This document shows positions 1,893 through 53,440 of a DNA stretch of 64,000 nucleotides, in pieces. Source of the DNA: Ditylenchus dipsaci. Taxonomy: Eukaryota; Nematoda; Chromadorea; Rhabditida; Anguinidae. Both the position numbers and the translations under genes were made by a program. The stretch is taken from the NCBI GenBank assembly GCA_004194705.1, contig SADC01001301.1:496001-560000 (forward strand), in the 5' to 3' direction. Position 1 is the stretch's first letter, and each line of letters starts with the position of its first letter. Below the pieces are notes generated by a model. That model was not told the DNA's origin, searched no databases, and saw only the letters and a program-made list of their open reading frames with translations.

Positions 1893-2127
1893 AAGAGTAC
1901 ATCTCGGAATCACGCCTAAGGTAAGTGAGTGCACGCATCTCTAACTCTCAAGCCCCCTGCGCCCCATTCGGGGGCGCAGTGGGCTTGGGGGCTTGGAGTT
2001 GAGATGCGCACACCCACATACCTCAGACACGAATCACTCGAAAGTAACTCTGGATGCATAAAAATGTATGCATACCAGAGTTTCTTTATGCGGTAGGCCC
2101 CAGTCATCAAAACTATGTTCAAATTGC
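1893..2127. repeat. Palindromic core, copy 1
   Basis: Near-palindromic core in the order arm A then arm B. Arm A has AAG|GTAAGTGAGT at 1,918-1,930, a strong 5' splice-site consensus, and runs into CTCAAGCCCCCTGCGCCCC. Arm B on the other strand has GAGGTATGTGGGTGTGCG. It sits in the centre of a foldback with arms around 1,690-1,800 and 2,150-2,280. Confidence 0.8.
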
Positions 2128-2493
2128 ATCTTTTTGGGGTAGGTTGGATCGCCTTGGGGGAACAAGCCAAAAAGTCAAAAACTTTTTTTTCCGGAAAATG
2201 TCCTTCTCACACTTTTTTTGGCCGTTTCTATTGTTTAAACGGCCTGAAAAATACTAAGACTTTGAAAAATGATCAAGAGGCTTGGATTCCTAAAGCTCTC
2301 GGTTTAAAAATTCTGGCGTTCTTCTCTGTTAATGCTGTTATCCTTCGCTCTGGCCTTAGGTATATTCTCTCTTTTTTTCCTTTTTTTCAGCTCTCGGTTT
2401 GGGCGCCCTATTATAATGGCAATAGGGCCCAAATTAGGCGCCAAATTTGGGCGCTTTTCATTTTATATTCGGCACACTGATAAATGTGGGTAA

Positions 2494-2611
2494 ACAGCCA
2501 GTTCGCCACGCGGCCAGTTCGCCACGCTTTTAAAAGTGGCCAGTTCGCCACGGCCAGTTCGCCACGCTTTTTGAAATGGCCAGTTCGCCACGGCCAGTTC
2601 GCCACGATTTT
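2494..2611. repeat. Tandem GGCCAGTTCGCCAC repeat
   Basis: A short word, GGCCAGTTCGCCAC, is repeated about six times, with AAAAGTGG or TTTTGAAAT spacers between some copies. It lies at the outer end of the foldback at 2,610-3,362. A single degenerate GCGAACTGGCC at 3,368 marks the opposite end. Confidence 0.85.
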
Positions 2612-3362
2612 TTTCTACTTATTGAATTGCTATATTTTTTTCTCAAAAATCTCAAATCTTAAAAATCAAAAAGTATCTTGGCTATTTAAAATGATTGTGT
2701 AAGCCATTGGCACCCTATAAAAACCATTAGCCATCCAGCTGGATGGTCCATGCAACAATATAACCCACTGATGGTCCGGTTGCAACAAAAGAACATTTTA
2801 TAGTGATTTCTTTATAGCGGTTTTCCAAGTAGTCCCCCAAGGTGAACCAAACTCAAGGAGTACCTGGATACTCTAAAAAGATGGAAATCGAACATATTTT
2901 TGTTAACTGGGACCTGCCGCATAAAGAAACTCTGGTATGCATACATGGTTTTTGCATCCAGAGTCACTTTCGAGTGATTTGCGTCTAAGGTATGTGTGTG
3001 TGCGCATCTCAACCCCAAGCAACCAAGCCCCTGCGCCCCCTTCGGGGCGCAGGGGGCTTGGTTGGTTAGAGATGCGCGCACTCACTTACCTTAGACATAA
3101 TTCCGAGCAAGACTCTTGATCATAAATGTATATAGAGACTCTTTTTGCCCGGCTCCAGTGACCAAAACAGGGTAGGATACTTCTATGTACGGTGGTCTGC
3201 CTTGGAGGATCTATGCAAAAAGTTGAAATTTGGTCAAAAAATTTTTATTTGATTGCTGCTTTATTTGGTTTTTATAGGGTGCCAATGGCTTACACAATCA
3301 TTTTTAAATAGCCAAGATACTTTTTGAAAAAAAAAATATAGCAATTCAATAAGTAGAAAAAA
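2610..3362. mobile_element. Foldback element with ~115-bp arms and core copy 2
   Basis: Arms at about 2,610-2,728 and 3,275-3,362 are inverted copies (TAAGCCATTGGCACCCTATA left, complement right). The centre, 2,890-3,175, is the palindromic core in order B then A: CTCTGG...CCAGAG hairpin, TCACTTTCGAGTGA hairpin, AAGGTATGTG, GC-rich stem, then CTTACCTTAG. No protein is encoded. Confidence 0.8.
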
Positions 3363-3755
3363 ATCATCGCGAACTGGCCTGTCTCCATAAATGTGCACGT
3401 TTCTAGTGGGATTCGAAATATTTTGAATTTTTTTTTGACAAAACTGTTATCACTGCCACTATGCCATACTGACACACATGTGTTCTAGGTTAAACCTAGT
3501 TAAACATAAAAAATTATGTAGAAGAAAGTGGTAGTAGTAGTAATTGTATTGCGTTTACTAACTAACTAAAAACCGCAAAAAATCCACTGCGACGACCATC
3601 CTGGCGTAAGTTAAATGGAAAATTAGTGCAAAAACCGTTGTGATTCTGATCCCTTGGTATTTCTAGGTTATTCACCACAATACCTGTATAATGACAGCCC
3701 ATAGGACTTTGAAAAAACGCACTTTTAGGCTACCCCAAATAGTGTACTTTAGCCA

Positions 3756-5195
3756 ATCATTTTTTGACGTAAGGCGCTAGGAAACCGGAAAATCTGACAC
3801 CGGATTCGTGTACAGCATGGTCTGTCAAACTGTCAAATTTTAAATTCCGCTCGAGACAACAAACATATAAATTTTCGAAAAATTCAATGTTTTAATATTT
3901 ATTGAGCGCAATTAAAAATTTGACAGCTAGGTTCCTAAGCCTAAAAATTATTAGGAGGGGGGGTGGGAGACATACTACAGGAGGGTTTTTGGGGGGGGGA
4001 GTTATTACAGTAGCGCCAAAAATTTTCTAGTAAAAAAACTTTAACTTATTTTAAAATGGCCTGAAAAGTAGCACCTAGACTTTTAGTCAGATTAAACTTT
4101 AAAGAAAACACGCTGCTTTGAAGGATAAGCCAAAACTATTTGTGTGGTAAAAGTAAAAAATAATTTGTAATAATTTTTGTTGCTTAGCCATATTTACAGG
4201 AAGAGACTATATTTTATAAACAGGCAAAAAGTAACACATCCTCTTTTTTTGTTTTACGTTGATCATTGTAATCCCCGTAAGTGGTTCATAAACAAGAAAG
4301 CACTAAATTTTATTCAAAATCAGGCCATAAAGCAAGTAGCCTTTCCATAAAACTATTAACTCGGCTTAGCAAATAAAAATTGTTGACTTACATGTTAGCT
4401 CTGTTTTTATAATTAAATATTAGGTTAGTACATAAGTCCCTAGAGTTTTTCTCAACCACCTTTTTAGATTACTACCTGAAGTCATTATTTTAAGAATTAT
4501 AAATCATCTTGTAGCCTAAATTCTGCTGTTTGAGACGGTCTCTTTAGTTTCTAAATTCCTTGTTGGAAATGTTGATTTTAAGACTGAAAGAATCGATTGT
4601 CAATTCGACAAAAATTATCGTTGTTTGAAAGCAAAGTCGGAAACGCTGATTCTTGTTGAATTGACTCTTAATTCTTTTAGTCAACATTTAGCCAACAAAA
4701 ATAATGACGTCCGTGAGTAATCTAAAAAGGTCGTTGAAAAAAATTCTACGAACTTATGTACCAACCCAATATGATGATGTGGAGCTCTCTTTAAAAAAGA
4801 AGGCCAAACTTGTTTTTCAATAAATTTAGCTTAGTCTCATTGGATAACGCTTGATCGCAAATAAATAACAAGGCTCTATATGTTTTGGTGTTTATATAAA
4901 TTGCTTTGGTTACCACATTGATTTGATCCTATTTTTTCAATAAAAATAAGTATTTTTAAATAAACACTTTCATCAGCTATTCAGCCCCATACTAGCTAGT
5001 TTAGCTAAGGCACAGGAGAAGGGTAGGCCAGAGTATTTTAAGACAGACTCAAACATTTTTTATAACCTCTTGTGTTTAAGTAATGAAAAAATTTCGCCTT
5101 CTTTACAACCTGGTAAAAAAATTATGGGAAATGAATTATTTTTCAAGGATAAATAGCACTTATAAATTTGTCCTATATATTTGGGCCAATGTTTT
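3756..5195. other. No gene seen
   Basis: AT-rich non-coding stretch. The only structure noticed is a G-rich run near 3,955-4,000 and a block at 3,795-3,880 that resembles the centre of the foldback at 61-62 kb. Confidence 0.45.
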
Positions 5196-6563
5196 TTTCT
5201 AAAGCACTCTGTAAAATATAACAAACTCAAGGCTTAACTTCTAACTTCAGATTCTCGGCTATTTTTAAATAGTTATTTTAGGACTATTGCACTTGGTAAC
5301 CCCCCAAAAGGTTGAAATTTCTAAAAACTAAAGGGTTAATATTTTAGAAACGCACCTCTTATAGGAATAGCCCATAATGTAGAGACCTCAAAGTGGAGGG
5401 GGATGCTGGTATACGGTATCTATGCTTAGCGTCTTTCCTCTAATAAGCGCCCACCCCTAACTTTAAAGACCTATAACTCAGCCCAGAACAAATATTTTGC
5501 GAATCTGTTTCTTGCGTTTTCTCAACTCTTACTGGATCTACCGATTCCGCCTTTTAGATTTATTGAGCACTCAAAATTTTCCAAATCGACTCCTAATTTT
5601 TTTCATAATTTTAGGGGGTTTGAAAAATAAGCGCCCATGGGCTCTTATTAGTGGCAATACGGCATGTGTACATTTTTATGACAAAGTGAATTTCTTCATC
5701 ACTCGAATAAATGGACAGTGCCAGGGTGGGCGGTGCCGGCTTTATCCTCCACCTTTCGCTTGAATTTTTTTGATTTGTCAATCAAAAAACAATAACAAAT
5801 GTGTCTGATGCTAAAATAGAAGTTTATTCACATGAAGCATGATACGATAACAATAACACAATCCGAAATTGCAAAAATAAGCTAGACAAACAAAAGTCAA
5901 TATTTGAGGACACACCCAACAATTCTGTTTAGACAAAAACCACAAAATGCCTTTTGTGTATTAGAAAAGAATTCTGAAAGAAGTAAGACAACAAAAAAGT
6001 TTTTTTATTTATACCCGCACTCAGAGTTCGCGCACACACACAAAACCGGTTGGTAGCTGTAGAAGATTAGACAAACTGGCAATGCCATGAGTAAAATGAA
6101 TAAAAAAATATGAGCGGAACAGAATTAAATTATCACATAGCATTACTCATCATGACTTGTATAAAAGGTAGTGCATCAGGGCTGGCGGCAAGTTTAGCTC
6201 ATGAATCCTGTCTAGCCTAGTCTTGCCCATTTGCAGCCGGATCGTCCTACGACACACGTCCATCAGTTGGCGGGGTTCAGCTGCAAAATTTGCGAATTTC
6301 AAAGAATTATGTGAATTGCTTGTTGAGATCTCTTAAGTTCGACCCCACCTAGAGTCCTACCTATTTTTCACTTTGTTTTGATTTATTTTTATTTATTCAT
6401 TTTATGTATACTTTATGGTGGTTAAAAACCGGCTGATTTTCTAAAGCACTCTGTAAAATATAACAAACTCAAGGCTTAACTTCTAAGTTTAGATTCTCGG
6501 CTATTTTTAAATAGTTATTTTGGGACTATTCGTAACCCCAAAAGGTTGAAATTTTTAAAAATA
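5196..6563. repeat. Direct duplication of ~125 bp (5,196-5,325 and 6,439-6,563)
   Basis: Both copies begin TTCTAAAGCACTCTGTAAAA and end near AAAAGGTTGAAATTT, with a few differences. They lie in the same orientation 1.1 kb apart. Between them are a degenerate CCGTATTT-type MITE (about 5,427-5,656, with CCTCTAATAAGCGCCC and GGGCTCTTATTAG ends) and the last exon of the gustavus-like gene. Confidence 0.75.
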
Positions 6564-9500
6564 AAAAATCACAGGTTTTGTGCCAGAATCATTTTATTAT
6601 GCCCCTCCAAGCACGAAAATCCATGTCCTGTATTTTGTTCATATTTTTTGTACAATCCATTTCAAAACTCACGATCCAGACCACCCATGTATCGGATTGT
6701 AATCTCGCAGTGACCCCACACTGCACTAACAATTGGATATAGCTTCTTGCCTTTGAGACCTCTAAAAGCAACTCCCAAATACCTGAAATCATTTTTGTAT
6801 TGTAATTTTGGATTGAATTTAACTAACTGTTTAGAAGTTGCAAACGCCATATATCCTTCGTCCATATCCAAAATACAATAAAATTTGTCGGAGGTTTGTG
6901 CACTGTCGTCTATTGAAGATGAGGAGGGATGGGTGGGATAAGTCCAGCCTTTTGTGTTATTTGAGTCATGATAGCACTTATTTTGCACTAAAATAGACAC
7001 CTTAATTTATTAGCCGATAAGAATAAAAGCAGATGCTTAAGTTTAGTCGAATAATAATATTTTAGCGAGAAAATTCTCGACTTTTAGGAACAACAACAAA
7101 ACAACCAATTTTATAAAGTGCAAACTAGACGATATGATCTTTTTCTTATTCAAAATCGTGTTCTTGGCGTTCTTTTTTGTCTGTTTTCTACAGAAAAATC
7201 TTAGGAAAGTTACTACATATTTTGTAGCCAAAGATGACCTACAAAATGAGTATTAAGATGTCTGAAATTCGATGGCTAAACGGGTCGAAAACACAATTTC
7301 ACAAACACATTTCTATAAATTTAGGGATGTCTACCTATTAGATTACCTCACCTATAATCTAGTTAAAGGGCCATTGTCGTCTCCAACAACGATTGTCCCC
7401 GCCAATTAATCATTGAACTTCTGTACGGACTTTTTAACTTGGTTTCTAACACAACTATACCTAAAATCAAATTCTAGGACTTGTTTTGTTAGAAACCAAG
7501 CTGGAAAATCCGTATAGAAGTTCAATGATCAGGCGAAATCTTATAAATTGGTTGGAGACAATCCAGAGCGCGTGACCATGGCCCTTTAACATCAGATTAA
7601 GTGTAAAACAGCTAACCCTTTAATATAAAATTGCAAATCATTATTAAATATGTGCAACTTACCCATATCCCAGCCATAACTTTCTGTGTTGGAGCCAATG
7701 AGTGCATTATAACCTGTAAACAATAATTTTATTCAAGGTTTTCGCGGTCGAAATTTTTTTGACACTCACCGGTGGCATGTAGAGCACACTCTTTTGTAGC
7801 CACTTAATTTAAAATTTATACTTGTAGTTTGCATAATTTTAAAATGTACCTCCAACTAGTGGGTGTGTTCCTCTTTGACCAACAGGCCAAACTAATTGCC
7901 ACACGTGGAAACCCCTGGTATAGCCAATCTAAAATTTTAATAGTTACTTAAAGTTTTTTCAAGCTATTTTTTTAATAGGTAAAATATACTTTTGTATAAA
8001 TTACCGCATTTATTCTCATAAAATCTTTTGTTTCTTAATGGAGCCAAAACTATTTCAGAAGTCTCCTAGAGGTATTTCTGACTAAATTTGATTTAGATGA
8101 CTAGACCTAATTTGTTCGTTGGTACATTTTGGTGGGCTTTTTTTATGCTTTCAGCCCGCAGAAATAGTTTTTATAAACACAACTTTACCTTGCCCCTGAT
8201 GCAGTCTGTGCTTTGAGCCACAGGGTGTCTGTGCAATGTCAGCCTATCTTCTTCTTTAACATAAATGTTGAGGGATCGATCGTCAGGATTCCAGGCGTGC
8301 CTTTCCATTTCCTCTCGGGAAGGTAAAGGCATTTGCAAGACCACATCGAATTTATAGGGATGCATCGCTTCATCAAAGTGGGCAAAATTCTGAAAATGAA
8401 TTTATTAAACAAATGCACTTTATATTTTTTTGTTAAACTCTTAGACTACTTCTTTTCCTTACTATTATTGTTTTCTTCTTTTCTTATAAATATTGTGGGT
8501 AAAAACTCAGTAAATAAAAAGAGCGCAGACTACTTTTTGGTTAAGAAACTGGGTTGGGAAACCCTTTTTTGGAAGTAATTAATAAAACAACCGACAATGA
8601 TGATAATAATAATGATTATATTGGAAGAAAAACAATACTATTTTGTTTGTGTGTATTCAATTAAAATGCATACAGTCAGGTGTCAACTAAACGGAACGGA
8701 TAACTTTAATGACTAGGAATTTATTTGAAGCATGAAGCAGAGGATAAGTGCTAGCGGTTGTTTGCTATAAATGGTGCGTAGGATTGGACAACTTGGTGTG
8801 ATTGACTAATTGACTTTTTGACGCCAGTACGAGATCAGCGACATCAAATAACCTCGATAAGTTAGTTCACCAAGACAAAATAAAAATAATACCCGCAAGC
8901 GGGGTCGAACATGCGAATCATTCGAACGACTAACGCTTTCCTAATAAATTACCAAATAAATTATTCGTTAAATAAATTTACAGTGATACGAGTTGCCGCT
9001 GCCTTAAAGTTAATTGTAAAATAACTATAAAAAGTCAACTGTAAATCTAGTTCACAATGAGTGTGGATTTTTATTATTTAACAACTATTTATCCAGATTA
9101 TTTTGAACTGGTTTTTTGAAATGACTTTCTAAATTTTATTAATTTTTAATGAAGCCAGTAAAATGAACTTCAGTTTGAAATTACGAAGCACAGTGCGAAA
9201 CACACGTTTTTGAATCAGGATGGACTATTAGAATAATTATAGTGTTTATGTTGTGTTTTATAATAAAAAATATTTTTACCAATGGATGAGCGGGTGAAAT
9301 AGATCTGCTTGCAGATGCTTTAGACGACTGCAACTTAGCGTGAATGATTCGGCGCTGCTGTTGTGCACGAGGGTTACTGTGATTTTGGCCTCTTGCAAGG
9401 TCTATCAAGCCTCTGGCTATCTGTAACTAAATAATATTACATTCTGAAATCAAAAACAAATCGACTTTATAATTATTTTTCAATAGAAAGACAAATTTTG

Positions 9501-21104: not shown

Positions 21105-21465
21105 TTAAAGTTATTGTTTTGCCATAAGATGACCAGAAAAGAGATTCTTATAAGGACAAAGGGCTGTATTGGAAGGGAAGAGACAAAATAGGGGCCATTT
21201 TTGAAGAATATTTAGGCTGTTTTACCATGTTTTTCAACATAGGCCGTTGCAAAAAGAGACTCTTTACGCATTTTATGATCAAGAGAACTTCTCGGAATTA
21301 TGTCCCCCTTCAAAGGCGCAGGGACTTGGTGGCTTGGGGTTGAGATGCGTACAGCCACATACCTTAGACACAAATCACTCGAAAGTGACACTGGATGCAA
21401 AAAAAGCATGCGCACCAGAGTTTATTTTATGCGGTAGGTCCCAGTATTCAAAGCGATGTTCAACA
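21105..21465. repeat. Palindromic core copy 3, partly deleted
   Basis: Arm A (about 21,225-21,305) lacks its donor-like segment and jumps to AAAGGCGCAGGGACTTGG. Arm B is complete: ACATACCTTAGACA, then TCACTCGAAAGTGA. The upstream block GGGCTGTATTGGAAGGGAAG (about 21,165) is shared with arms of the foldbacks at 25.3-26.3 and 29.4-30.7 kb. Confidence 0.75.
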
Positions 21466-23036
21466 TCTTTATTTTTTTGCAAAAATTATTAAATTACTTT
21501 TGTAGTCTTCCAGTGGCTAAATTATTGCTTGAAAATCTTTTTGGAACACGTCTGTAAAAATCGATTTTCGGGAGGGGTATGTCATAATAGCACCAACAAT
21601 ATCCTAAAAGTTTTCGATCTGAAAATTAGGATGGAATCGATAATGTTTTCCGCATGTTTGAGTCTACCTTAACAATGCTGGCTTAGTCTTAAAACTAAAA
21701 AAAAAACCCAAAAGTTTAGTCTTCGATTCACTCAGCTTGACACTATGTCAAAACGACAATTGCTTTTGACAAGAAGTCACGGAATCCATAGTAAAAAACA
21801 TTCGAAAAACAGAAAGAGATCATTGCTCAAAATTTTCAAAGCAAAGAAATATTGATAAAATGTTTGCGCCATTCGATCTCAGGCAAGATAATAATAAAAA
21901 AGAGATCAGACAATTTCAAACACACAAGAGACAAACCCTATACACAATTTCCGGAACTTGCCAATCCTAAAATGTGTAGGACACTGATCATTACACAGCC
22001 ACAAATACTACTTTAAGTCCTTCTCACACGCTCTGTTATTATGCAAATTAGGGAATTAAATCAGGCGATCAAGAGACAAAAAACACAACTGCGAAATATA
22101 CTAGCAGCAATTTGGATCATAAACCAAAACAACCAGAAACAACGCGAAAATTTCTGAAAAGATGGTAAAGACCAGTGTTTTTTCATGATCAACACTCCAT
22201 ACAATCTATACAATCTCAAGTTCGTTCCCGGATAAGTATGATAACAGTTTTGCCAGTAAAAATCGCAGTTTTCGATAGACCTGCGTCTAGTCTTTGTGTG
22301 TCGAAGCCCAAAAAAGATCCAACCTAAGATGGTGGCCCATTTGATACTGCATAGATCTATACAAAAAGATGTATTGTCAAGCAATATTGACCAATTTAGC
22401 CCTTTGTTATTACGTAAATAGGGGAGTCACCATCCGCCAGTTACCAGCCAGCACTAATAGCAGCAGTTATGCAAGGGTGGCTGCTGCATGAGTTGTGCAG
22501 TACTCCACCCTTCCTAAAAGTAGCAGATAACTGGTTGGTGTATGACTGCTTAGCTGCTATGGGGTTGCTGGATCAGATCTTTTTTGCTAGCTGGTTTGAA
22601 AGGGCTTGATCGCTTGCGTTGATTGTTGATGTTCGGAAGCAGTAGCAATATAAAATTGCTACTGCTGCTGCTCATGAAGACGTTGATATTTGAATAAGAG
22701 AAGAAAATCGGAGAGATGAAAAGAATGGTTCTGTCTGTGGCAGCTGCGGATGATGATGATGCACACACCAATAAAGATCAAACAAAAAGGTAATAAAGAA
22801 GCAACAGCAGCTTATTTGGCAACTTTGCAATTAATTTCAAAGACAGTTACTAATAAAAAAGTAAAGACAAAAACAAACAGATGCAAGGTGGAGTTGAGAT
22901 TGTGCATTATTCGATAAGACCTAAATTACTTAACCCTACACTAAAAAATTGCACCAAATAAGCATAGTAGATCAGTGTATGTAGCGACCGCTCACTACTA
23001 AATGGTCGAAAATCTATGAAAGTTTCTTTGAAGCTA
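21466..23036. other. No gene seen
   Basis: AT-rich. A 73-codon minus-strand frame at 22,550-22,771 is driven by GCT/GAT trinucleotide runs and is not called. Confidence 0.45.
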
Positions 23037-25262: not shown

Positions 25263-26278
25263 AGGGTTATCGAATTTTCGGCGCTACTCGGTTATACCCC
25301 CCCCCCCCCCCAAAAAAAGTGCTACTCGGAATACCCCCCCCCCAGTCCTAGGAGCTACTCGGTTATACCCCCCCCCCCAAAAATCAGATTTTAGGAGTGG
25401 TCAAAACACATTTTTAAGCAATAATTTTGCCATAAAGGTCCAGAAAAGCAATTAAAATAGGGTACAAGGCTGTATTGGAGGGGAAGGGACAAAACAGGGC
25501 CACTTTCATAGTGCCTATAAGTACCAAAGAGTATTAATTATCTAAGCGTTGAACTCACTTTCAAACCCAGCCACTTGTGGTGCACGTAAAAGTATAAGTA
25601 CTGGAGCTGATCAGACGATCAGCCGGGTGGATCCTGATGGTTGTTCTTTAACTTTGGATGGCTGAGCCTCTGCTCGTAGCTCAGGCCTGAAGAGAGGGAT
25701 ACCTTTTCGGCCGAATAATCAAAGACCCTCTTCGGCCGAATAATCAAAGATATGAACATAGTTTTGAAACTGGCCTACCGCATAAATAACTCTGGTATGC
25801 ATTTTTTCATGCATCCAGAGTCACTTTCGAGTGATTTGTGTCTAAGGTATGTGGGTGTGCGCATCTCAACGCCAAGCCCCCAGGCCCCTGCGCCCCGAAG
25901 GGCGCAGGGGGCTTGAGAGTTAGAGATGCGCGCACTCACTTACCTTAGACATGATTCCGAGAAGTCACTTGATCATAAAATGTATATAGAGTCTATTTTT
26001 GCCACGCCCGAGTTGAAAAACATGGTAAAGCAGCTAAAAAAAGTGGCCCCTGTATTATTCCCTTCCCTCCAATACAGCCCATATTCCCTTTTAAATTGCT
26101 TTTCTGGACCTTTTATGGCGAAATTATTGCTTAAAAATGTGTTTTGACCACTCCTAAAAATCTTGATTTTTGGGGGGGGGGGTATAACCGAGTAGGTCCG
26201 ATTTTTGGGGGGGGGGGGGGGGTATTCCCGAGTAGCTTTTGGGGGGGGGGGTATTACCGAGTAGCGTCGAATTTTCGT
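25263..26278. mobile_element. Foldback with homopolymer ends and core copy 4
   Basis: The outer arms are three GCTACTCGG...(C)n blocks at 25,275-25,380, mirrored by (G)n...CGAGTAG at 26,170-26,270. They are followed by paired arms around 25,400-25,510 and 26,030-26,150 (GCTGTATTGGAGGGGAAGGG and its complement). The centre, 25,745-26,030, is the palindromic core (TCACTTTCGAGTGA, AAGGTATGTGGG, GC stem, CTTACCTTAG). Confidence 0.85.
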
Positions 26279-29350: not shown

Positions 29351-29383
29351 TTACCATCACTCTTATTGTAAGCATGGCTTGAG

Positions 29384-30730
29384 TATAGAATCCCCCACGC
29401 AGAGTGATTGGATGGAGGAGATAACTTCATATTCGTGTTTCTCGACCCCGATTTCATGAAAAAGCCGCGTGTTTTTTTGATTCTGAGAAAAAAAATTTTC
29501 GAACCACAGGGGTATCATGGTTTTTTAGTCAAATTTGAAAAATTAAATTGGCGCCTTTTGAATATAAAAAGATTAAGGGCTGTATGGGAGGGGAATGAAA
29601 GGGGACCACTAATCATACAAAGGCCCACTAACAAGAAGATGTTGAACATAGTTTTGAATACTGGGGCCTACCGCATAAATAAGCTCTGGTATGCATGCTT
29701 TTCATGCATCCAGAGTCACTTTCGAGTGATTTGTGTCTAAGGTATGTGGGTGTGCGCATCTCAACGCCAAGCCCCCAAGCCCCCTGCGTCCCCGAAGGAG
29801 GCGCAGGGGGCTGAGAGTTAGAGATGCGCGCACTCACTTACCTTAGACATGATTCCGAGAATCACTCTTGATCAAAAAATGCGTAAAGAGTTTCTTTTTA
29901 CCACGACCCGGTTGAAAACATGGTGAGGCAGTCGAAGAATACATATATTTACTTTCTATTGTCTGCCATAAAAGTGGCCCCCTTTTATTCCCTTCCCCTC
30001 CCAATACAGCCCTACATCCCTTTTAAATTTAAAGGCGCCAATTTAAATTTCTCAAACTTTGACTAAAACCATGATAACCCCCCCCCCCTGTGGTTCGAAA
30101 ATTTTTTTTTCTCAGAGTCAAAAAAACAACGCGGCTTTTTCATGAAATCGGGGGTAAAATATCGATTGGTGACAATTTTGATTGGTGACTATCGATTGGT
30201 GACAGTATCGATTGGTACTATCAATTGGTGACACTTTATGACGGAACTTATGGAAATTTTAATGAAACATCAATTTCTGTGAAAAGTTTTTGGAAATTCA
30301 CCCTTTCAGCCAAAATTTTATTCTGAATCCGAATCCGTTGAGATCAGATCAAATAATTTTTATGAGGCGAGATATCCTTCTCAGTAGACCAGGGCTCGAT
30401 TTTCTCATTGTTCACTCAAAGTAGCTATATCTCAGCTTATAAAAAATTATTTGATCTGATCTCAACGGATTCGGATTGAGAATGAAATTTTGCAGAAGGG
30501 GTGAATTTCCAGAAACTTTTTCACATAAAATTGATGTGTTTCAATAAAAAATTTCCAAAAGTTCGTCATAAAAGTGTCACCAATCGATAGTCACCAATCG
30601 ATACTGTCACCAATCAATAGTCACCAATCAAAATTGTCACCAATCGATAGTTTGTCCGAAATCGGGGTCGAGAAACACGAATATGATGTTGTCTCCTCCA
30701 TCCGATCACTCTGCGTGGGGGATTCTATAC
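29384..30730. mobile_element. Large foldback with core copy 5 and a nested foldback
   Basis: Outer arms TATAGAATCCCCCACGCAGA (left) and complement ending at 30,729 extend about 90 bp through a shared TCGACCCCGATTTC. Next come paired arms around 29,540-29,640 and 29,960-30,060. The palindromic core lies at 29,640-29,930. A separate foldback sits at 30,159-30,652. Open frames here are arm-derived. Confidence 0.85.
30159..30652. mobile_element. Foldback with (ATCGATTGGTGAC)n ends
   Basis: The left end has about five imperfect ATCGATTGGTGAC units. The right end has the complementary GTCACCAATCGAT units. The inner arms GAATCCGTTGAGATCAGATC and complement pair almost to the centre. It is nested in the larger foldback. 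Confidence 0.88.
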
Positions 30731-32335
30731 TACGACCGTAAGCATTTCACGTGGTGACCCCCCAAAAAGTCAAAGCATTAAATTTTCAAAATTGATTTTT
30801 GCTGATAATATTGTTAGAGAATCCTGTCTTTAATTGAAAGTCATTTCTTTTCTTTACTGTACGTTGGTTTCGAGGTTTTTTAAATACATTATGCCTAGGT
30901 ATAAAAATGTGTGATCTAAAAAACGGTACGCGACAATTCACGCCCGGACAATTCACGCCCGGGACGATTCACGCCCGGGACAATTCACGCCCGGACAATT
31001 CACGCCCGGGACATTCACGCCGGACGATTCACGCCCCAGGACAATTCACGCCCCTAGATAATTCACGTTAAGTCACTTTATTTATTTACTTTTCTATTTA
31101 TCAAACCGTCTAAATCACCCAGAATCGGGGTAATGAGGTAGCTACACACCCTGAAGGGTTTAGTTATTTAGTTAACTCTGACTCGCACCCTCACTCTCCA
31201 CCAACAAAGACGCTTTCCGTGAAGAATTCGCAGGAAATTTTAATTTTCAGTCTGAACCAACCAAATCAAGTGTCTTCCACTTAGATCAAAAATTTTTTTA
31301 TTTTTTTCGGGTTCCAAACTTGCTTTCTGGACTAATTCGGGCATGCTGAAGATGGTTTTGATAGTGGGTAAATGCTGTTTTGAAGGGTATTTGAGTTTTG
31401 GTAAATCAATTGTACTCGAATACCCAAAAAAACATCAAACAAAACCTATTTACTATATCAAAGCATCTTCAACATGTCCGAATTAATACAGAAAACAGTT
31501 TTGGAACATGAAAAACGTAAAAAAATTTTGCTCAATAGTCGACCACTTGGTTTGTTGTACCCAAATAGTCGTACCCAGGTTTGGGGAACTTAGGTAGTGT
31601 AGTGATACCGGGGTAGTAATATTTTGGTCTTTGTAAAGAACTTTTTAAAAGTTTAGAATTTTCCTATGATTCAACCTCAATTCTACTGAATAAACCCATG
31701 CACAGCCTTTTCAAAATTTAAGTCTTAGTCTATTAGGGATATTGGCGCCAAACAAAAGTTATTAAAATAGTCAATTTGAGGCCTTTTTTGCTTCATGACT
31801 CTGATCTGGTTTTTTTCTTCTCGGTTTCTGCATGCTTATTGCCAAAAGATTCCTCACGTGAAGGGCTTTCGAATGAGCCATCACTTGCCTATAAAACTCG
31901 TAAATTGCAAAACCACAAGCAATTTCTTTGAAATTTTCGAAGGAATTTCTTCGCCTTATTAATTTGATTGAGATCTCGCCAATTTTTCTGTCTAATTTTT
32001 CTCAAAACAAAACTGAGACTGTGATAGAGGAGTAAATTGCTGCATTTCGGTACCAAGGATGTATACAAAAAATACAAATTTAGGGTGTTTTATACAACAG
32101 TTAGACGGAAAACGCAAACACCCTATTTTTACTCGGAAAAATAGCAGTTGTTTGCTTCAAATAGCCTCTAGTTTTGAAAATTCTGGTTTTACAAAAATCG
32201 GTCTGGATTTTCGGGTAAAAGAGATTGTAGGCTTTCTTTTGGTGCTAAAAAAGCCCCAAAAATACAAAATTGGCGTGTCTCATACAAAAATAAATTCAGT
32301 TTTTTTAGAGCTGAAGATGGTCCTCCACCAGAAGA

Positions 32336-34174: not shown

Positions 34175-34304
34175 ATAGATGTTGAAACCTTAATGGCTTT
34201 TTCCCCTCTTTTGACCCACCGGAATCCGAACCTGTAACCTATTAGCGCATCAATTTAACAGACATCATTAACCAGGATATAAATTTAGCGCCGAGAATTA
34301 CCTA

Positions 34305-34470
34305 GGGCGTGAATTATATATAGGGGCGTGAATTGTCCTGGGGCGTGAATTGTCCTGGGCGTGAATCGTCCGGGGCGTGAATCGTCCCCGGGCGTGAATT
34401 GTCCCGGCGTGAATTGTCCGGGCGTGAATCGTCCGGCGTGAATTGTCCTGGGCGTGAATTGTCCGTGTAC
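34305..34470. repeat. Tandem GGGCGTGAATTGTCC array
   Basis: About ten imperfect ~14-16-bp units alternating AATTGTCC and AATCGTCC. It is the inverted partner of the array at 30,926-31,075 and also occurs at 40,207-40,310. The repeat is continuous, without spacers. Confidence 0.9.
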
Positions 34471-39544: not shown

Positions 39545-40060
39545 GGTACGTGTCAAAAGGCTACAACGGCCGAAAGGCTACAACAGGCCAAAAGGCTGCA
39601 ACTCAAAAGAAGGGACTGAAGGCTACAACTAGAAAAGAGGACAAAAGGCTACAAATCGAAGGAAACGGACAAAAGGTTACACCTCAGTAAAATTATGAAA
39701 AAAGCGAAAATTTCGACTTTTTACTTGCGTTGCTTTCGAGGGCGCAGGGGGCTTGGGGGCTTGGAGTTGAGATGCGCACACCCACATACCTTAGACAAAA
39801 ATCACTCGAAAGTGACTCTGGATGCATAAAAAGCATGGATTCCATTCAAAGCATGGATTTCATGGATTTTTGAAGAACTCAAAAATAATGTCTTTTTTGA
39901 ACTCCTGGGGCGATTTTAGGTCTATATAGGTTGTTTGGAAACATTTGACGGTTGCTTTTTAGGTTGACGGCACTTTTTCCCAATTTTACTGAGTTGTAGG
40001 CCTTTTGTCCCTTTCTTTCGAGTTGTAGCCTTCTGGCCTTTAGTCATTAGTGTACCTGCC
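39545..40060. mobile_element. Foldback with (AAAGGCTACAA)n ends and core copy 6 (half)
   Basis: The left arm repeats AAAGGCTACAAC-like units five or six times. The right arm has the complementary GTTGTAGCCTTCTGGCC and GTTGTAGGCCTTTTGTCC. The centre, 39,735-39,850, holds only arm B of the palindromic core (GGGGGCTTGGAGTTGAGATG, ACATACCTTAGACA, TCACTCGAAAGTGA). Confidence 0.85.
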
Positions 40061-40205: not shown

Positions 40206-41200
40206 GTACGCGCAATTCACGCCCGGGACGATTCACGCCCGCGACAATTCACGCCCGGGACATTCACGCCGGGACGATTCACGCCCCAGGACAATTCACG
40301 CCCCTAGATAATTCACGTTAAGTCACTTTATTTATTTACTTTTCTATTTATCAAACCGTCTAAATCACCCAGAATTGGGGTGATAAGGGTAGCTACACAC
40401 CCTAAAGGGTTTAGTTATTTAGTTCTCTGTGACCCTCAATCTCACCCAACAGGAAAAAACTGCTTCTCAGTTTACTTTCACTCTCACTTTCAGTGTACCA
40501 ATGACTTCTTTTACTCTCACTCTCAGTGAAGATTTCGCAGGAATTTTAATTTTTTAATCTGAACCAACCCAAACCAAGTGGTCGTCCACTTAAATCAAAA
40601 AAAAAATTTTTCGGGTTCCAAAACTTGTTTTCTGGAATAATTCGGGCACGCTGGAGATGGTTTGATAGTGGTTAACTGCCATTTTGAAGGGTATTTTTGA
40701 GTTTTGGAAAAATCGAGTTTTGTTAAAATCAAATGTACCCGAATACTCCAAAAATATCGAACAAAATATTATTTTACTATTATCAAAGCATCTTCAGCAT
40801 GTCCGAATTAATACAGAAAACAGGTTTTGGAACATGAAAAACGTAAAAAAAATTCGCTCCAAGTGGTCAACACTTGGTTTTGTTGTACCCAGGTAGTCGT
40901 ACCCAGGTTGGGGAACTTAGGTAGTGTAGTGATACCGGGGTAGTAATATTTTGGTCTTGTAAAGAACTTTTAAAAGCCAGAATTTTTCCTATGATTCAAC
41001 CTCAATTCTACTGAATAACCATGCATCAACAAAACAAGTGGTTGTCCACTAGGAGCAAAATTTTTTTACGTTTTTCATGTTAAAATAGTGCGCAAGTACG
41101 ATCCCACGTAGTGGCACGCTATTTTTTAGCTTCTTTGGCCAGTTTTAGGCGGGATTAGACTTTTTTGACGTCAGATTCGGAATCACCAAAAAACACCTAC
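40206..41200 (+). mobile_element. Satellite-ended element, copy 2 (uninterrupted, right end lost)
   Basis: Begins with the GACAATTCACGCCCGG array (40,207-40,310), then the same inner sequence as 31,075-31,700 joined directly to that at 33,892-34,060. The junction ACCATGCATCAAC near 41,020 is the empty site for the CAC...GTG insertion in copy 1. No right-hand array remains. Confidence 0.85.
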
Positions 41201-43350: not shown

Positions 43351-43352
43351 TA

Positions 43353-44668: not shown

Positions 44669-45578
44669 TCAATCAACTTTCTTCTCCAGGTGGTGCCCTC
44701 CTTGGTCATTCTTTTGCAGATGGTGTTCTTCTTGCTCATTCTGAGGATAGTCCAAGTCATCTATGGCATAATCTTGATCCACAAACAGCTCGCTTTCATC
44801 GCTGAGAATAGAAAAGTGCTCCAAAGAAACAATCATGAGAGACAAAACTTCACCTTAAAGCTTTAAATTGAAAAAAAGCTTCTCAGTGCTCAAACCTGTC
44901 CACTCAATAGAAGCTTGAGTGATTTCGATATGATCATCCATGCCAATATTCGACTTGATCTGAGAGCACAGTTGACATTTATGTTCTCCGTCAGTAGCCA
45001 TTCCCACGAAAGAACCAGTATTTAAGCCAAAGTGCACAATGTCTGTGATTATCGAAGACCTGTGAAAATAAATGAAAATGATTCATTGATGCAAATGCAC
45101 AACTAACCGTATCTTTTAGTATACTTTCAAAACACAATTCTTGTACACACTGCATGCCGAACTTCACGACTAATCCATAGAGTGAAGACCTGAAAAGATG
45201 AATGAGAAATATTTATTGATAACAATGCACAACTAACCGTATCTTTTAGTATACTTTCAAAACACAATTCTTGTTCACACTGCGGCCGAACTTCACGACG
45301 AATCCATAGAGCGAGAACCTGAAGAGATGAATGAGAAACACTTATTAATAAGAATGCACAACTTACCGGATCTTCCAGTATACTCTTAAAGCACAATTCT
45401 TGTTCACACTGCGGCCCGAACTTCACGACTAATCCATAGAGCGAAAACCTGAAGAGATGAATAAGAAACACTTATTGATAAGAATGCACATTTTACCAGA
45501 TCTTCCATTATACTCTTAAAGCACAATTCTTGTACACACTGCGGCCCGAACTTCACGACCAATCCATATAGCGAAAAC
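44669..45578 (-). CDS. 3' end of an unidentified gene with four tandem exon copies
   Basis: Tandem exons 45,497-45,578, 45,367-45,448, 45,238-45,318 and 45,108-45,189, each 81-82 bp with a ~48-bp intron between, encode FSLYGLVVKFGPQCEQELCF-like units. Next is 44,854-45,059 (IITDIVHFGLNTGSFVGMAT, then CQLCSQIKSNIG), whose start resembles the repeated exon. The last exon, 44,669-44,801, is acidic (DESELFVDQDYAIDDLDYPQ) and ends in HHLEKKVD. All have AG/GT borders. A T-run at 44,870 probably lacks one base; adding one would join the last two exons in frame. An 82-nt exon cannot be spliced twice in series without a frameshift, so the copies would have to be alternatives. No domain is recognised and upstream exons were not found. 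Confidence 0.6.
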
Positions 45579-45600
45579 CTGAAGAGATGAATGAGAAACA
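45090..45600. repeat. ~130-bp exon-plus-intron tandem repeat
   Basis: Four units with starts 129-130 bp apart. Within each, the exon half (AATTCTTGTACACACTGC, CTTCACGACTAATCCATA) is better conserved than spacer length would require, and the spacer keeps GATGAATGAGAAACACTTAT and splice borders. The whole exon-intron unit was duplicated. Confidence 0.9.
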
Positions 45601-46064
45601 CTTATTGATGGTATCACCCTCAAATACCTTTACTTATTTACTCTTCAATTTCAGACTTAACTTTGAACCATAGTACAGTCCAAGTACTTCAAATATTTAC
45701 CATTATTGAAGCACTTGGATTGCAGTATAAATCAGAGTTAAATCAAGAAAATTTTAAAAGACTCGAGTCCAAATGTTTATTCGAGAATAAAAAATTCAAT
45801 CCAAGTATCTGGATGATTCACAAAATTCGAGACAAAAAACATGAGACTCGACCACAAAATCAATGGAGAGAGCCAACTGCTCAACATGCTCAAGAAATAA
45901 TAATGAGCATACGACAAAACTTCCGCTGCAATGAAATCCTCTTGAGACCAACTTTCAAAGAACAATTTTAAGACATTTGAAAATTTGCGATGACCGACAT
46001 ACATACAACTCTCTTTTAGTATATAGGATTTTCTAAAATAACAAATTACAGTGTTATTCGAGAT

Positions 46065-46630: not shown

Positions 46631-47118
46631 TGGACGCTGGTAGTCTTCCTTTTTGCAAACAGACTCCAGCTCACATACACTCATTCGAAAGAGCAGACCC
46701 TAAAGTTCTTTTGACGTATTACAGTCATAGATGTGGTTTGCAAAAAAAAGCGATGTCTGCCTCTTTGTCCAAACACCCGTACATATATTTTGAACAATCG
46801 TTTGCGTGAAATTCTGAGTTCAACGAGGTATTGACCGCCACTCTGCCCTACAAGTGCTAAGAAAGAATTTGATTTTTTTGTTGAAACTACAAATGACATT
46901 AGTGCCGAATAAATCTAATTGCATTTTCCTAAGATACAATGCTTTGTGAAAAATCAATTCGCAATAAAATTTATTAGATCCGTACAAAAGTAAAATTATC
47001 CACTCAAACAAAGTAGCCCTTGTATCCAGCGTAGACTGTAGAGGGCCAATAACAACACTTTGGAACTCATCATTCTCAAAAAAAACACTAAATGGCTAAC
47101 ATCAACGATTGCGCTGAT

Positions 47119-50100
47119 TTAGCCTCCAATCATCAGGCCTGCTCCTACTTTGGTGATCGGTTTCTGCAAATATATAAATTTATATATAAATTGTTTTCAC
47201 TATGATATAATAGCTCTGACATGACATTCACAGTTAAAATTATTTTTATGAGATTCAGGTTTCAGTTTAGCATTCACTAGTTTGATCCAAAAACATGAGA
47301 ATGGTCAATAATCTCTTCAATTTATGAGAAGTATAAGAAAAGAGAAAGATTAATTCATAATTTATAATCATCTTAACCGCAATCCTTCTGATCGCCACAA
47401 TCACGATATCACCATTATTCATACGAGGGAGACCGAGGAATTTTTCGGCAAAAAGCAATGCGGAAAACCAAAGTTTATTCTGACACAGGATTTGGCCAAA
47501 GAACTATTTGCGCGTAGATTCAAAGCTTTCGTGACCCATCAGCTTTAAGTATATGTACCTAATAAACATTTTAAACTTTTATTGGTTTTGAAAGAGTTCG
47601 TGGCAAAAAATTTAGTTCGTCTGCCCACAAAGTTTTTTCCCTTGACACATATAGAAGAAGAGTAGTCAACCTCTTTGACTCTGCTTAATCGGCCTTTCTA
47701 CTATAGTCGAACCTTCCAAAGGGACCAGCCAGGGGACATGGTTTGACACCCTTTTACCCTCATTTATTTTAACTATTGCCAGTTCTGTTATGAAAAGTCT
47801 TGTCCGAAATATAATAAGCATTCCGATAATAATAAGCATTTTGCTGATCGTTTTTCAGAAATCAAAAATTTTACTTTCTAAAAAAGCAAAAAATCGATAA
47901 AAAAAAGCTATTATCGAAGTAGCCTGCCCTTGAAAGGAGTTTTTTGCTTTTTCAAAGAAAAAAATGTTTGAATTTTGCAAAAATGATCGGCGAAATCGTA
48001 ATCCTTGCGATATTTTTGACGATAGTGGTTACGCCGTCCGTCACTGTCCTAATTTTTTTTCATCGCCGTCTTGCATTTTCATCAAATTTTATATAAACGG
48101 AACGCTTTTTTATTTTACATCATATAATCAGTTTTTATTTTTCTGCCTTATTTTTGGGTGGCCGTCTAGGTTTTCTTTCACTTTTAGTTTAAAGAAATGA
48201 GGCCGTCCTAATTTTTCCGATTTTTTTGAAAATTTTCATGTAAAATTAGGACGGCCTCATTTTTTTGAACTAAAAGTGAAAAAAAAACCTGGACGGTCAC
48301 CCAAAAATAAGGTAGAATAATAAAAACTGACCATATGATGGAAAATAAAATAAACATTCCGTTATAAAAAAAATTGATGAAAATACAGGACGGCGATGAA
48401 AAAAATTAGTAGGCGAAGGACGGGCGCCCGACTATAATTGTGATTTGATTGGGAAAAGAGATCTGGTAAAAAAAAATTAAAATTGAGTTAAAAAAGGTGT
48501 CGGACCCTAAGTGGGAACAAACTTCTGTCCTTATTCGAGAATGTCCTTATTGGTAGATTCGACTGTAAATCAGTAGTGAACTGATAGTGGAGGAAAGTTC
48601 AGCTCCAATATGGTGTGTTTTTGACGTAAAAAAGTCTGCAATCCATAAAAATATTTTCGGCATGTCAATGACACCCCAGCATATAAGTTTCGTTGCCGCA
48701 AGTTTAAAGAGGACAAACCGAGAAGTTGTGGATCAAACTGAGCACGAATGTGAAAGGCAGTTGTTTGGACAGCTTTTTCTCCATCACACTACTTACGGTC
48801 CAGTCAGTGTCACAGGATGCTCTGAACACAAAAGTGTCGGCTATCTCTGTCTGGTAGGCAAATGCCTAAACATAGTATGTGATGAGTTTTCTTAATAGTA
48901 AGAGTATTTGACGTTCTGCTTACAGCCTTGCTCTCCTGTTGCCGGAAACTCGACTCAAAATCCACACCGAACTGCAAAGTGTCTGACTGTCTGTGGTAGT
49001 AGGAAGCATGGAATCCACTGTTGGAAGCGGTAGCTGCTGCGGCCCAACTAGGAGTGCAGTAACGCATCCATAAGACAGTACACTCATCACATCTGTTTGC
49101 CCTAAAATGGAGGGATTTGCCTAATTATGCTAATGTTGTGCTTTTTTGTATATCGATTAGGTTCGACTATGGAAAAAACTCTGAAAAGTGTTTGGCTGTA
49201 TGGCTTTGGCAAAATTTGCGCAAAAAGCGCTGTCTGACTTTTAACAGCACTTTGACTGCAAAGGACTGTTTTTACCTGGTTTTTGAGAAGCACACTGGGT
49301 TATGAGCTCGGCACCCAGCTCCAGGTTTTCTGTCAGTCGACGGACATAAGCTGCAATACTCACATTTTTTTGCTTCAAATAATTGGTAAAATATGAAACT
49401 CACAGCCAATAAATGCACCACTATTATTTAAGATATTGGGGTTAGCGACAGTTAAAGCTGAAATTTTAGTGCGAATTAAATTCTTTTTTTGGATGAAGCT
49501 TTTTACCGCTAGTGGTCAGACGACCCGACGTTCTAGCGAGAACTGAGTGCCTGCCATTTTGCTTTGCTGCAAAAAAACAAATTGAATATGATTTTGGGGA
49601 TTAAAAAGTCGTACACAAAAATACTGACCTGAACTTGTGCCATGCCTTGAAGCGAATACCATTGGTAAATTGGTGTAAAACGGTAGCCGAGGTGTTGCCC
49701 TGTAATAAAAGTAGAAAAATTGAAAGTATTGATATTTCAAAGTTGGACATGTATTATTAAGGTCAAAACTGAAAAATGCCTTTAGCTGAAAAGTACCGTC
49801 CTTTGAGTTCTAGAGAGAAAAGCTGAACAGTGCCAGATATCTAAACATTTTTTTTAAATGATAGCACTATCAGGTAGGCCTGCGACTCTAGTTTCTAACG
49901 GAGTATCATTTGCTGAAACATCTTTGCAAAAGTTAAGCGCCAAAACGTTGAAGTATGAAGCAAGTCTGAAAAATAATTTTATTCATACTTTTACCTTTTT
50001 GTGCTACATTTCGCATAGATGTTACAGCAAATGATACGCCGTCAGAAACTAGAGTTGCAATGCTTCCTGGTGGTGTTATGTTCCTTAGATATTTAACTCT

Positions 50101-50711
50101 TTCACTAAAAGAATTCAGACAAAAGACGGTATTTTTCAGTTTCGACCTATTATCAACTTTTTGACATTCTGTTGTGTTATTAGAATTATGAAGACTTCTT
50201 TTAATTGTATGAAAAAAATTGTGCTATTAGTGTACTATTTTAAAATCAAAATCTCTCGACCCTTTTTTAATCGTAACATAACATTTACCATAAAACACAT
50301 ACCTGAGGGTCCATGTCTCCGAGCATAACTGGAAACAGCTCTCCTGGACCTCCAGCTGGTTTCGACCCCACATAAGTGGATCCAAAGCGGTATCCATTTA
50401 AGTTGGTGGACAAGTTGATTGAGTGAGAAATCTAATAAACATATTTATGTTGATCAAAAAATTATTTTTCAAGATAGGGATACCTGGAAGTGCGAGCTCA
50501 ACTGCTTGTTCAACATAACTTTGGCTCCTTCAAACACGATTGGAAAGACATCGCGACATTTGCGGTGGAACTCGTCAAAAGAGAGCACATCTGGCCTAGA
50601 TGGTCTGGCTGACATTGATTCGAACCCTTGTGGAGCTGCTTGTCCAGTAGGTTCTACTGACGCATCTAATCCAGACATACTTAGTGTATTGATACTGGAA
50701 TTGTGGTGCAT
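47119..50711 (-). CDS. TOMM40: Mitochondrial import receptor TOM40
   Basis: Beta-barrel channel of the outer mitochondrial membrane translocase. Nine exons: 50,484-50,711, 50,303-50,431, 49,629-49,699, 49,507-49,566, 49,404-49,457, 49,276-49,358, 48,924-49,101, 48,719-48,865, 47,119-47,163. Family landmarks in order: FDEFHRKCRDVFPIVFEGAK, LNKQLSSHFQ, YRFGSTYVGSKPAGGPGELF, VMLGDMD, SGFHASYYHRQSDTLQFGVD, EIADTFVFRASCDTDWTVSS, VMEKKLSKQLPFTF, final KVGAGLMIGG. The barrel is complete; the N-terminus is short and the start (50,711, or Met at 50,678) is uncertain. At least four single-base losses occur (for example the AA run in exon 3 and GGGG in exon 4). The last intron (47,164-48,718) contains a transposon. 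Confidence 0.94.
47704..48565. mobile_element. Pogo-like element with inner foldback, in the TOM40 intron
   Basis: The left end TAGTCGAACCTTCCAAAGGG and right end GGTAGATTCGACTG|TA resemble pogo-type ends. Inside, 48,040-48,425 is a foldback whose arms (AGGCCGTCCTAATTTTTCCG, GACGGCGATG and complements) meet near 48,220. No transposase is present. Confidence 0.65.
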
Positions 50712-50731
50712 ATATTGCAAGGTCTTTGCTG

Positions 50732-51770
50732 TTTTATAAAAAAAATCTGCCAAAAGCTGTTCGTTAAAATTTTGGTATAAAAGGGAACAATATCATAATC
50801 GACTACAGATCACAAAAAGTTATGGTTAAAACAATTGTCGGACCCATGGCGGGATTGTATGGAGAAGTTCGTTTTGATTATTTCTCAAAAATTTATGTAT
50901 AAAGTATTGATAAAATTCCCTTACTTTTGAGTATCACGCCGAAAATTTACTTGTTTAGCCTATGTTCTAATTAAAAAATATTGCTCTGCTTCAATACTAG
51001 CAAGCCAAATTCGTAGCGCGAAAACACCGTTTTTTGTCAAATCTATCAAATTTAAAAATAATCAAATCTCATAAATGTGAAATATATGATTTATCTACAA
51101 AAATTTAAGTATAGAAACACGAAAAGAGACAAAAAAAATATTTCAATTTTATGGGTGATAATTACTATAAGTACCGGATTTGAAACTTAGTTAATAAAAG
51201 AAAAAGGTAAGTTTAAAAATATTCCCTCCTACATTGCGAAAATTTTCAGCCCATTTTTTATTTTAATAAAACTATGTCAAAATGTGCTAAGTCGTTTAGA
51301 AATAAGGCGCAATATTTGAATAAGGATTATGAAGAAGCAGTATGCTTTACAATAATATTTTTTGATTTGAAAAGCTATGTAATTGACGTAAATAGTGCGA
51401 TATTGAAAAGATCAATGACATAAATGTTGGGAATGGGTCGGCTCTTGGTTCTACACTTGAAGGCAACAGCCAATGAGTTTTGATCCGATTTCTTAAAAAT
51501 ATCTACAAACCACGTTTTTGAAAAAAAACGGTTGTAAATAGTTTGACTTTGCCTATGCGATTGATGATTATCACTAAAAGCCGGAATGAAAAAACTCTAA
51601 TAACAAATTCATTTTACTTCATCGTTTGATGTATGTTATTCTCTTTTCTCTGATTTACGTCCTCCCAAGAGTGATTAAATGTAATTAATTGTATTTTTAA
51701 GGTCGTTCTGGAGCCATATTTTGTAAACGAAATATTGTTCTAATGTAAAAATTAAATTAAAGGGGCATGA
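50732..51770. other. Upstream of TOM40, no gene seen
   Basis: AT-rich. It may include the TOM40 5' UTR: a splice acceptor-like AACAG at 50,729 suggests an unseen upstream exon. No promoter motif can be assigned. Confidence 0.45.
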
Positions 51771-51992
51771 TCGTGCCCGATGGGGGAAAAGGCGCGAACC
51801 AGCAGTTCTTTTCTTTCTCGATAAATTTTTACATTCGTTCTCGTCTAGATTTTTTAAGTTTTCTGTCTAGTTTTTAAAAGCAGTATAAGGTCATCTATAT
51901 CAGATTTGACGCAGAACGAGTGAAAAATGGGACGATTCGAAAAAATTCGAAAAAAACTGCTGGTTCGCGCCTTAACGCACGGGCATGCCCCT
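51771..51992. mobile_element. TTAA-flanked MITE (222 bp)
   Basis: TTAA|AGGGGCATGATCGTGCCC at the left and GGGCATGCCCCT|TTAA at the right. The second pair of arms AAGGCGCGAACCAGCAGTT and complement near 51,955 forms most of the element. Confidence 0.88.
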
Positions 51993-52394
51993 TTAAAAAC
52001 TTTAATTTAAGAATTTCGAATGCTCTAATGTTCTTAAGATTGAAGCGATATAAATGGGATGTGTCAGGTGGCTTTTTGAGAAAATTCAGACATTCTGATA
52101 TTGATGTTGCTAATCGACTTTTGGTTCTGTACAAGTTTTATTTACATTGCAACGCTGGGTTGTCAACAAATGTTACAGTTTAAACGACGTATCAAAATAT
52201 CATTTTAGGTACACTTTGACAATTTTGAGGAGCGCAATAAGTAAGTGATCATAATTTAACAACAAGTCATTGGTGCTAAACGGCTTTGTCTGACAATTTT
52301 GGGCACTTGTGCACTTGGGGGGGGGGGGGAGCTTTTTAGTCAACTCTAAATAAAGTTTGAACGTCTCCTAAGCAATTCTAATACGCTGAAAACG

Positions 52395-53440
52395 ATAAAA
52401 AGTTATTTCCCAACAATTTCCGCACTAAAACGTTAGGTTTTCAAAAAACATTGGTTGCCAAAGTTTAACCAATTGACTTGGTCCCCCATACTACTAAAAA
52501 CCGAATGGGTACCTGGACACCCTTAAAAAGACTAAAAAAGATGGGATTTGAACAAAGTTTTGTCAACTGGGGCCTACCGCATAAAAACTCTTGTATACAT
52601 GTGTTTTCATGCATCCAGAGTCACTTTCGAGTGATTTGTGTCTAAGGTATGTGGGTGTGCGCATCTCAACTCCAAGCAACCAAGCCCCTGCGCCCCCGAA
52701 GGGGGATCAGAAAAATTATAAATTCTAAACTATGCTTTTTTTGTCAAAAATGCTGTTTTACCAGTAGTTAGCTTTACCCAAAGTTAGAAATGTGCGCATT
52801 CACTTATCTTAGCCATGATTTTTTTGGTTGGATTGCCTTGGTCCCCCAAGGCAATCCAACCTGAAAGGGTACCTGGATACCACAAAAGATGGAATTTGAA
52901 CATAGTTTTGTTGACTGGGGCCTACCGCATGAATAAACTCTGGTATGCATATATTTTTATGCATCCACAGTCACTTTCGAGTGATTTGCGTCTAAGGTAT
53001 GTGTTTGTGCGCATCTCAACTCCAAGCAACCAAGCCGCCTGCGCCCACGAAGGTGACGCAGAGGGATTTTGTTAGAAAAAAAGGGGGTATACTCTGATAG
53101 AATCAAAAATTCAAATTAAAAACACTAGAAACTGGCTTTGCGCATCTCTAACTCTCAATTCCCTGGGGGCGTCTCCTCCGGGAGCGCAGGGGCTTGAGAG
53201 TTAGAGATGCGCGCACTCAATTACCTAAGACATAATTCTGAGCAAGACTCTTGATCAAAAACGCATATAGAGACTCTTTTTGCCAAGGTCCACTGATCAA
53301 AACGTGATAGGATACCTTAAAATAAGATATTTTACCTTGGGGGACCAAGGCAATTGGTTAATTTTTGGTAAACAATTTTTTTTTTGAAAACCTAACTTTT
53401 AAGTGCGGAAATTGTTGGGAAACAACTTTTGGGAAACAAA
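52395..53440. mobile_element. Foldback with core copies 7-9
   Basis: Outer arms AACAATTTCCGCACTAAAA... at 52,415 and complement at 53,375-53,430. Inside are two successive B arms of the palindromic core (52,555-52,700 and 52,885-53,062, each with TCACTTTCGAGTGA and AAGGTATGTG) and one A arm with its own GC hairpin (53,135-53,300). This is a duplicated or recombined core. Confidence 0.8.

Follow-up and report, generated by a model that had tools for sequence, protein, structure and literature searches.

What kind of sequence recurs at the centre of foldbacks whose outer arms differ from one element to the next? The question is raised by a 64,000-nucleotide stretch of the genome of the nematode Ditylenchus dipsaci (GenBank assembly GCA_004194705.1, contig SADC01001301.1, positions 496,001 to 560,000 of the forward strand; hereafter the window), in which an imperfect palindrome of ~290 bp, here called the core, is present in eight copies. 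A preliminary description of the window, made from its letters alone, had suggested a structured RNA, a U1-recruiting or spliced-leader-like unit, or a transposition hairpin. We consider it probable (about 0.87) that the core forms the middle of DNA transposons that are palindromic and apparently non-autonomous, a superfamily of the miniature inverted-repeat transposable element (MITE)/foldback type with an 8-bp target duplication. On this reading, its families have in common a left end type starting with GGC, a right end slightly different from the left, and an old core with diverged arms, the outer arms in between being different. The last of the earlier suggestions came near the truth, the carriers of the core being palindromic transposons. 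As mobile DNA the repeat is of a known kind; what makes it interesting is how many arm types surround one centre.

A consensus of the core was built from 30 loci of the 227-Mb source assembly (1,359 contigs), chosen by core match and all turned to one orientation. Scanning 264 kb with this consensus identified 24 matching pieces, three in C1:300001-400000 and 21 in C1266:396001-560000, and the ten of these found in the window group into the eight copies. At least nine arm types were distinguished around the core (Ia, Ib, Ic, Id, Ie, II with the related L023, III, IV, V, VI, and VII; type VI is partly related to type Ie), in agreement with the earlier observation that outer arms vary between elements.

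Element ends and target duplications

The 30 core-bearing loci were searched for ends with GG..CC, a match between ends of at least 10/20 bases, and an exact 8-bp flanking repeat. An exact, non-palindromic 8-bp direct repeat together with inverted ends was found at 20 of them, delimiting elements of 824-1,025 bp. When the right flank was swapped in from another locus, only 3 of 578 combinations passed, all of them from L011 and L025, which have common flanks and so are not independent. The same ends were recovered when GG..CC was not demanded, with the addition of L023, whose right end reads GCC... Terminal inverted repeats are present in types Ia-Ie, type II, and L023. Two elements in the window have ends of this kind:

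25280-26268, plus strand: type II element at 25.8 kb, with ends GGCGCTACTCGGTTAT and GACGCTACTCGGTAAT (the right end begins GAC) and the exact 8-bp duplication GAATTTTC at 25272-25279 and 26269-26276
29376-30737, plus strand: type Ib element at 29.7 kb, with ends GGCTTGAGTATAGAATCCCC and GGTCGTAGTATAGAATCCCC, alike at 16/20 bases, and the exact 8-bp duplication GTAAGCAT at 29368-29375 and 30738-30745

Genome-wide, the type Ia end pattern had 343 exact matches (170 on the plus and 173 on the minus strand), and the reversed control had none. Among 100 listed matches there were 26 inward-facing neighbour pairs less than 5 kb apart, every one of which joins a GGCTAGAC-type end to a GGTAACAC-type end; 18 of these pairs span 875-926 bp, and the remainder range from 338 to 4,092 bp. 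Such 8-bp duplications, together with paired inward ends of defined left and right type, are marks of DNA transposons. The left ends of the families read GGCTAGAC, GGCTTGAG, GGCTAAAG, GGCTATAC, GGCGCTAC, and GGCACTAT, those of types Ia-Ie beginning alike, and the 100-250 bp that follow are often unalignable between families. The earlier claim of a conserved centre in place of conserved ends is not borne out, given the like beginnings of the Ia-Ie ends and the duplications at 20 of the 30 loci.

In the window, the three frames of at least 150 aa all lie outside the listed elements, and none has a Pfam family match. At C220:115716-119807, two type Ia ends stand 4.1 kb apart and may belong to a longer relative, possibly a coding one, or to a nested insertion. 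In L002 (oriented), at about 1170-1385, a CAGGGATGATAT..ATATCATCCCTG element, which we take to be hAT-like from its look, is inserted in an arm with an apparent 8-bp duplication, GGAATAAG.

Core copies, arm types, and proposed exchange between families

The copies in the window and the arms around them are as follows:

1700-1850, unstranded: type VI outer arm; a genome search with it listed 615 first-look candidates, and all 40 that were scored matched
1851-2136, minus strand: core, 1.9-kb copy, arm type VI, with the outer end missing from its high-coordinate arm
2890-3173, plus strand: core, 2.9-kb copy, arm type VII, with inverted arms at 2592-2726 and 3266-3379
21224-21469, minus strand: core, 21.2-kb copy, degraded
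25753-26033, plus strand: core, 25.8-kb copy, a consensus match within the type II element
29642-29930, plus strand: core, 29.7-kb copy, in the order B arm, GC stem, A arm; consensus piece 29622-29962
30156-30653, unstranded: other palindromic repeat, built of ATCGATTGGTGAC units and lying inside the right arm of the 29.7-kb element
39638-39702 and 39974-40039: inverted arms at 39.7 kb, one stretch of which resembles type III
39735-39844, minus strand: partial core at 39.7 kb, B arm alone
52398-53430, unstranded: type V outer arms (52398-52488 and 53338-53430) around both cores at 52-53 kb
52548-52820, plus strand: core, 52.6-kb copy, B arm 52548-52705 and A-arm remnant 52782-52820
52896-53292, plus strand: core, 52.9-kb copy, B arm 52896-53064 and A arm 53180-53292

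The repeat itself, described earlier as about nine copies, is real; the count falls to eight because what had been placed at 52.9 and 53.1 kb as two copies is a single one, seen once by its B arm and once by its A arm. Used as a genome query, the 29.7-kb core had 1,991 first-look candidates and the 52.9-kb B arm 2,813, with 40 scored and 40/40 matching in each case. At up to two mismatches, AAGGTATGTGGG occurs 17 times in the window against 3.63 expected, a number reached in none of 100 shuffles. The hairpin motifs had been attributed to each B arm, which is too strong: over the eight copies, CTCTGG and CCAGAG are each found in six, exact TCACTTTCGAGTGA and AAGGTATGT each in seven, and exact AAGGTATGTGGG and exact AAGGTAAGTGAG each in four. 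The consistent difference reported between the two core arms was borne out. Antisense matches of the core against itself have 70-79% identity, indicating that the arms have diverged, and in the type Ia consensus the left and right core arms agree at 102/120 positions over the best local stretch, compared with 227/229 for the outer arms.

Comparison of types Ib and Ic illustrates how a centre can be common to elements with different exteriors. Their consensus sequences have 578 central bp in common at 96.7% identity, opening with ATCATGGTTTTTTAGTC and closing with its reverse complement, and their outer parts are unrelated. Among types Ia-Ie, the outer limits of the shared sequence on the two arms agree to within 2 bp in 7 of the 10 type pairs, and the other three are off by 8, 90, and 101. 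Between families, cores stay similar even where the arms are unalignable. Mean core distance is 2.0% inside type Ia and likewise 2.0% from Ia to Ic, all core distances among these loci being lowered by their choice through core match; the cores of types III-VII are 13-21% from the type Ia core.

Between type VI and type Ie, whose arms are still alignable, the arm differs by 21.3% and the A side of the core by 12.6%. Inside families the comparisons disagree. In four of the five type III copies (87920 was dropped as a 98.9% duplicate of 46089), the arm differs by 5.3% and the core B arm by 10.6%, a figure that a deletion in one copy may inflate. For the type II pair, the core differs by 5.6% and the right arm by 2.6%, and in three type VI copies chosen by their arms and compared with the window copy, the A side of the core differs by 8.3-12.3% and the arms by 6.1-7.7%. 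Judged from these alignments, which are small sets, the core does not appear to evolve consistently more slowly than the arms inside families. Cores common across families, combined with no steady slowing of the core inside them, point to movement of central segments between families.

Under the transposon reading, the elements would be moved by a transposase supplied in trans, and ectopic recombination or conversion among many similar palindromes would carry central segments from one family to another. Both arms must then be replaced jointly, for which two processes are candidates. Exchange might take place between extruded hairpin tips or stems, or one arm might be recopied from the other by self-templated copying, and either process would keep the arms matched. 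In the first, a crossover between extruded stems would swap everything above it, so that core and inner arms move in one step; we regard this particular route as unlikely, though if it were true the cores would be parasites of palindromes, outspreading any single element family.

Weighing the readings

Several observations weigh against the transposon reading and the exchange of segments that goes with it. Ten of the 30 loci yielded no such ends and duplication in the end search, nor did five of the seven window stretches (1.9, 2.9, 21.2, 39.7, and 52-53 kb), and types IV, V, and VII are without defined ends. No transposase was linked to these ends in searches for hAT and MULE (P and Merlin were not searched for): a hAT transposase dimerisation domain was matched by 150 of 150 scored sequences from 2,005 genome candidates and a MULE domain by 115 of 150 scored from 504, none tied to element ends. 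The type Ib pair has a core divergence of 8.7% against 12.4 and 14.8% in the arms, and in the 13 of 16 loci assigned to type Ia that were compared, all picked by core match, the core differs by 1.0% and the arms with inner flanks by 2.8-3.6%. Over all 45 type pairs, these outer limits of the shared sequence disagree by more than 2 bp in 35 and agree in 10, with offsets of up to 300 that are partly due to one-sided insertions or deletions; symmetry of the breakpoints is moreover in part a consequence of the palindromic form of each element.

Selection for an RNA role, with the core kept as a structured RNA or as a spliced-leader- or U1-related unit carried by the elements, was suggested by TTCG-loop hairpins and by the donor-like motifs AAGGTAAGT and AAGGTATGT in many copies, and spliced-leader RNA genes do have a short sequence ending in a donor-like AAG|GT. 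However, the spliced-leader, small nuclear RNA (snRNA), and structured RNA candidates found no support in covariation, Rfam, or Sm-site checks. Across 22 aligned B arms, 97.1% of the pairs in three stems (21 pairs) are standard, equal to shuffles, and some copies have broken stems. None of the 21 pairs is changed on both sides in the 22 sequences, which amounts to a lack of support rather than a strong disproof because nine of the pairs never vary. An Rfam scan of the window returned nothing at gathering score, and with the limit relaxed to an E of 1, the 501 bp surrounding the 29.7-kb core matched two microRNA models and one bacterial small RNA model, all far below their thresholds and none a spliced-leader or snRNA family. 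Neither donor-like motif of the consensus is followed within 140 nt by an Sm-type A-T(4-6)-R site or by a run of more than two T. In 264 kb, AAGGTAAGT occurs 11 times and AAGGTATGT 15 times on both strands together, and the two are best seen as one inherited motif because they occupy matching places of one diverged inverted repeat. Core divergence exceeds that of the arm in types II and III, two of the three families compared from the 264-kb stretch, and in all three arm-chosen type VI copies, with type Ib showing the opposite. Compensatory changes in the hairpins, which the preliminary description had proposed to look for, were thus not found, nor was a consistent excess of core conservation inside families in these small sets, the very pattern it had set against its own proposal. 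We consider an RNA unit highly improbable; segment exchange between families fits better than selection at the RNA level, and the donor-like motifs and hairpins would then be without RNA function.

Two further readings keep the core within mobile DNA. The core could be a transposon in its own right that landed at the centre of many palindromic elements unrelated to one another, which then amplified with it, as the presence of the same core within at least nine arm types might suggest, and other insertions into foldbacks are known here (the CAGGGATGAT.. element in L002 and the 30156-30653 repeat). The junction between shared and unshared sequence, however, varies by family pair instead of lying at one fixed element end, and at the Ib/Ic junction, the sole one examined by eye, the bases on either side form an inverted and not a direct repeat. 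In 264 kb, arm matches longer than 60 bp adjoin core pieces, with shorter end matches also found elsewhere, and two short type VI forms are half-core deletions and not empty sites. We regard such an origin as distinctly unlikely. A slightly better case can be made for a core kept as a cis-acting transposition site, bound by transposase or a host factor, with arms that drift while remaining complementary: ends and core are the parts common to the families with known ends, and the arms of the type Ia consensus are 99% symmetric although arm sequence changes between families. Against this, half-core deletion forms with related ends exist, though these may have moved before losing half of the core, and core divergence inside families is not consistently slowed, so that this reading too seems rather unlikely.

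The transposon reading leaves a candidate RNA gene without its support and accounts for the odd pattern of a conserved centre. The elements also offer a rich natural data set for two questions: by what route a palindromic transposon comes to have both of its arms replaced together, and how new families of terminal repeats originate. A repeat annotation that relied only on ends would divide these families, and one that relied on the centre would merge them.

Related systems and neighbouring repeats

Palindromic MITEs with 8-bp duplications include hAT-, P-, and Merlin-type elements, and the core-bearing elements resemble them in being short and in having inverted ends and an 8-bp duplication. 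hAT ends usually start with CA or TA, whereas the ends here begin GGC, and the usual MULE duplication is 9 bp, in contrast to the 8 bp here.

The nearest precedent met is Galileo, of the P superfamily. In Drosophila mojavensis, some Galileo copies are reported to combine the two ends of one subfamily with the centre of a different one, the centre being 98% identical between subfamilies compared with 77% in the outer 570 bp, and the cause proposed is exchange or conversion with both breakpoints inside the element (PMC3573991). Galileo is alike in its long inverted repeats and in a centre shared between subfamilies with diverged outer parts. It differs in its 7-bp duplications (PMC3573991), compared with 8 bp here, and in having transposase-bearing, though defective, copies, whereas no transposase is linked to the elements here, and most pairs of arm types have outer arms that could not be aligned. 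The Tm1 Mutator/Foldback elements of root-knot nematodes likewise have foldback-like repeats, two differing short outer-end motifs, MITE-like members, and a hairpin motif inside some members; unlike the core elements, they have 9-bp duplications, tandem motif units in their repeats, low copy number, and transposase-coding members (PMC3169594).

Other repeats occur in and near the window. The inverted repeat of the type VII element at 2.9 kb extends outward beyond the part common to other type VII copies, and tandem GGCCAGTTCGCCACG units adjoin that element at 2497-2612. C1278:67560-69187 carries counterparts of the 1.9- and 2.9-kb arms, identical at a rounded 100% and arranged alike, and is perhaps a second haplotype or a duplication. 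Related tandem CAATTCACGCCCGGGA stretches at 30932-31210 and 40213-40460, ~9.25 kb apart, have common flanks that are 97% identical over 117 bp, and a reverse-complement array of the same type lies at 34295-34465. A 130-bp unit is present in four tandem copies at 45053-45676 (91% matches), and a large inverted repeat at 61018-62195 has arms up to 97% complementary. Neighbouring stretches contain a frame for an animal haem peroxidase together with frames of gypsy, Harbinger, and mariner type, and L031:2-3395 contains gypsy-type retrotransposon frames (DUF7083, aspartyl protease, and integrase).

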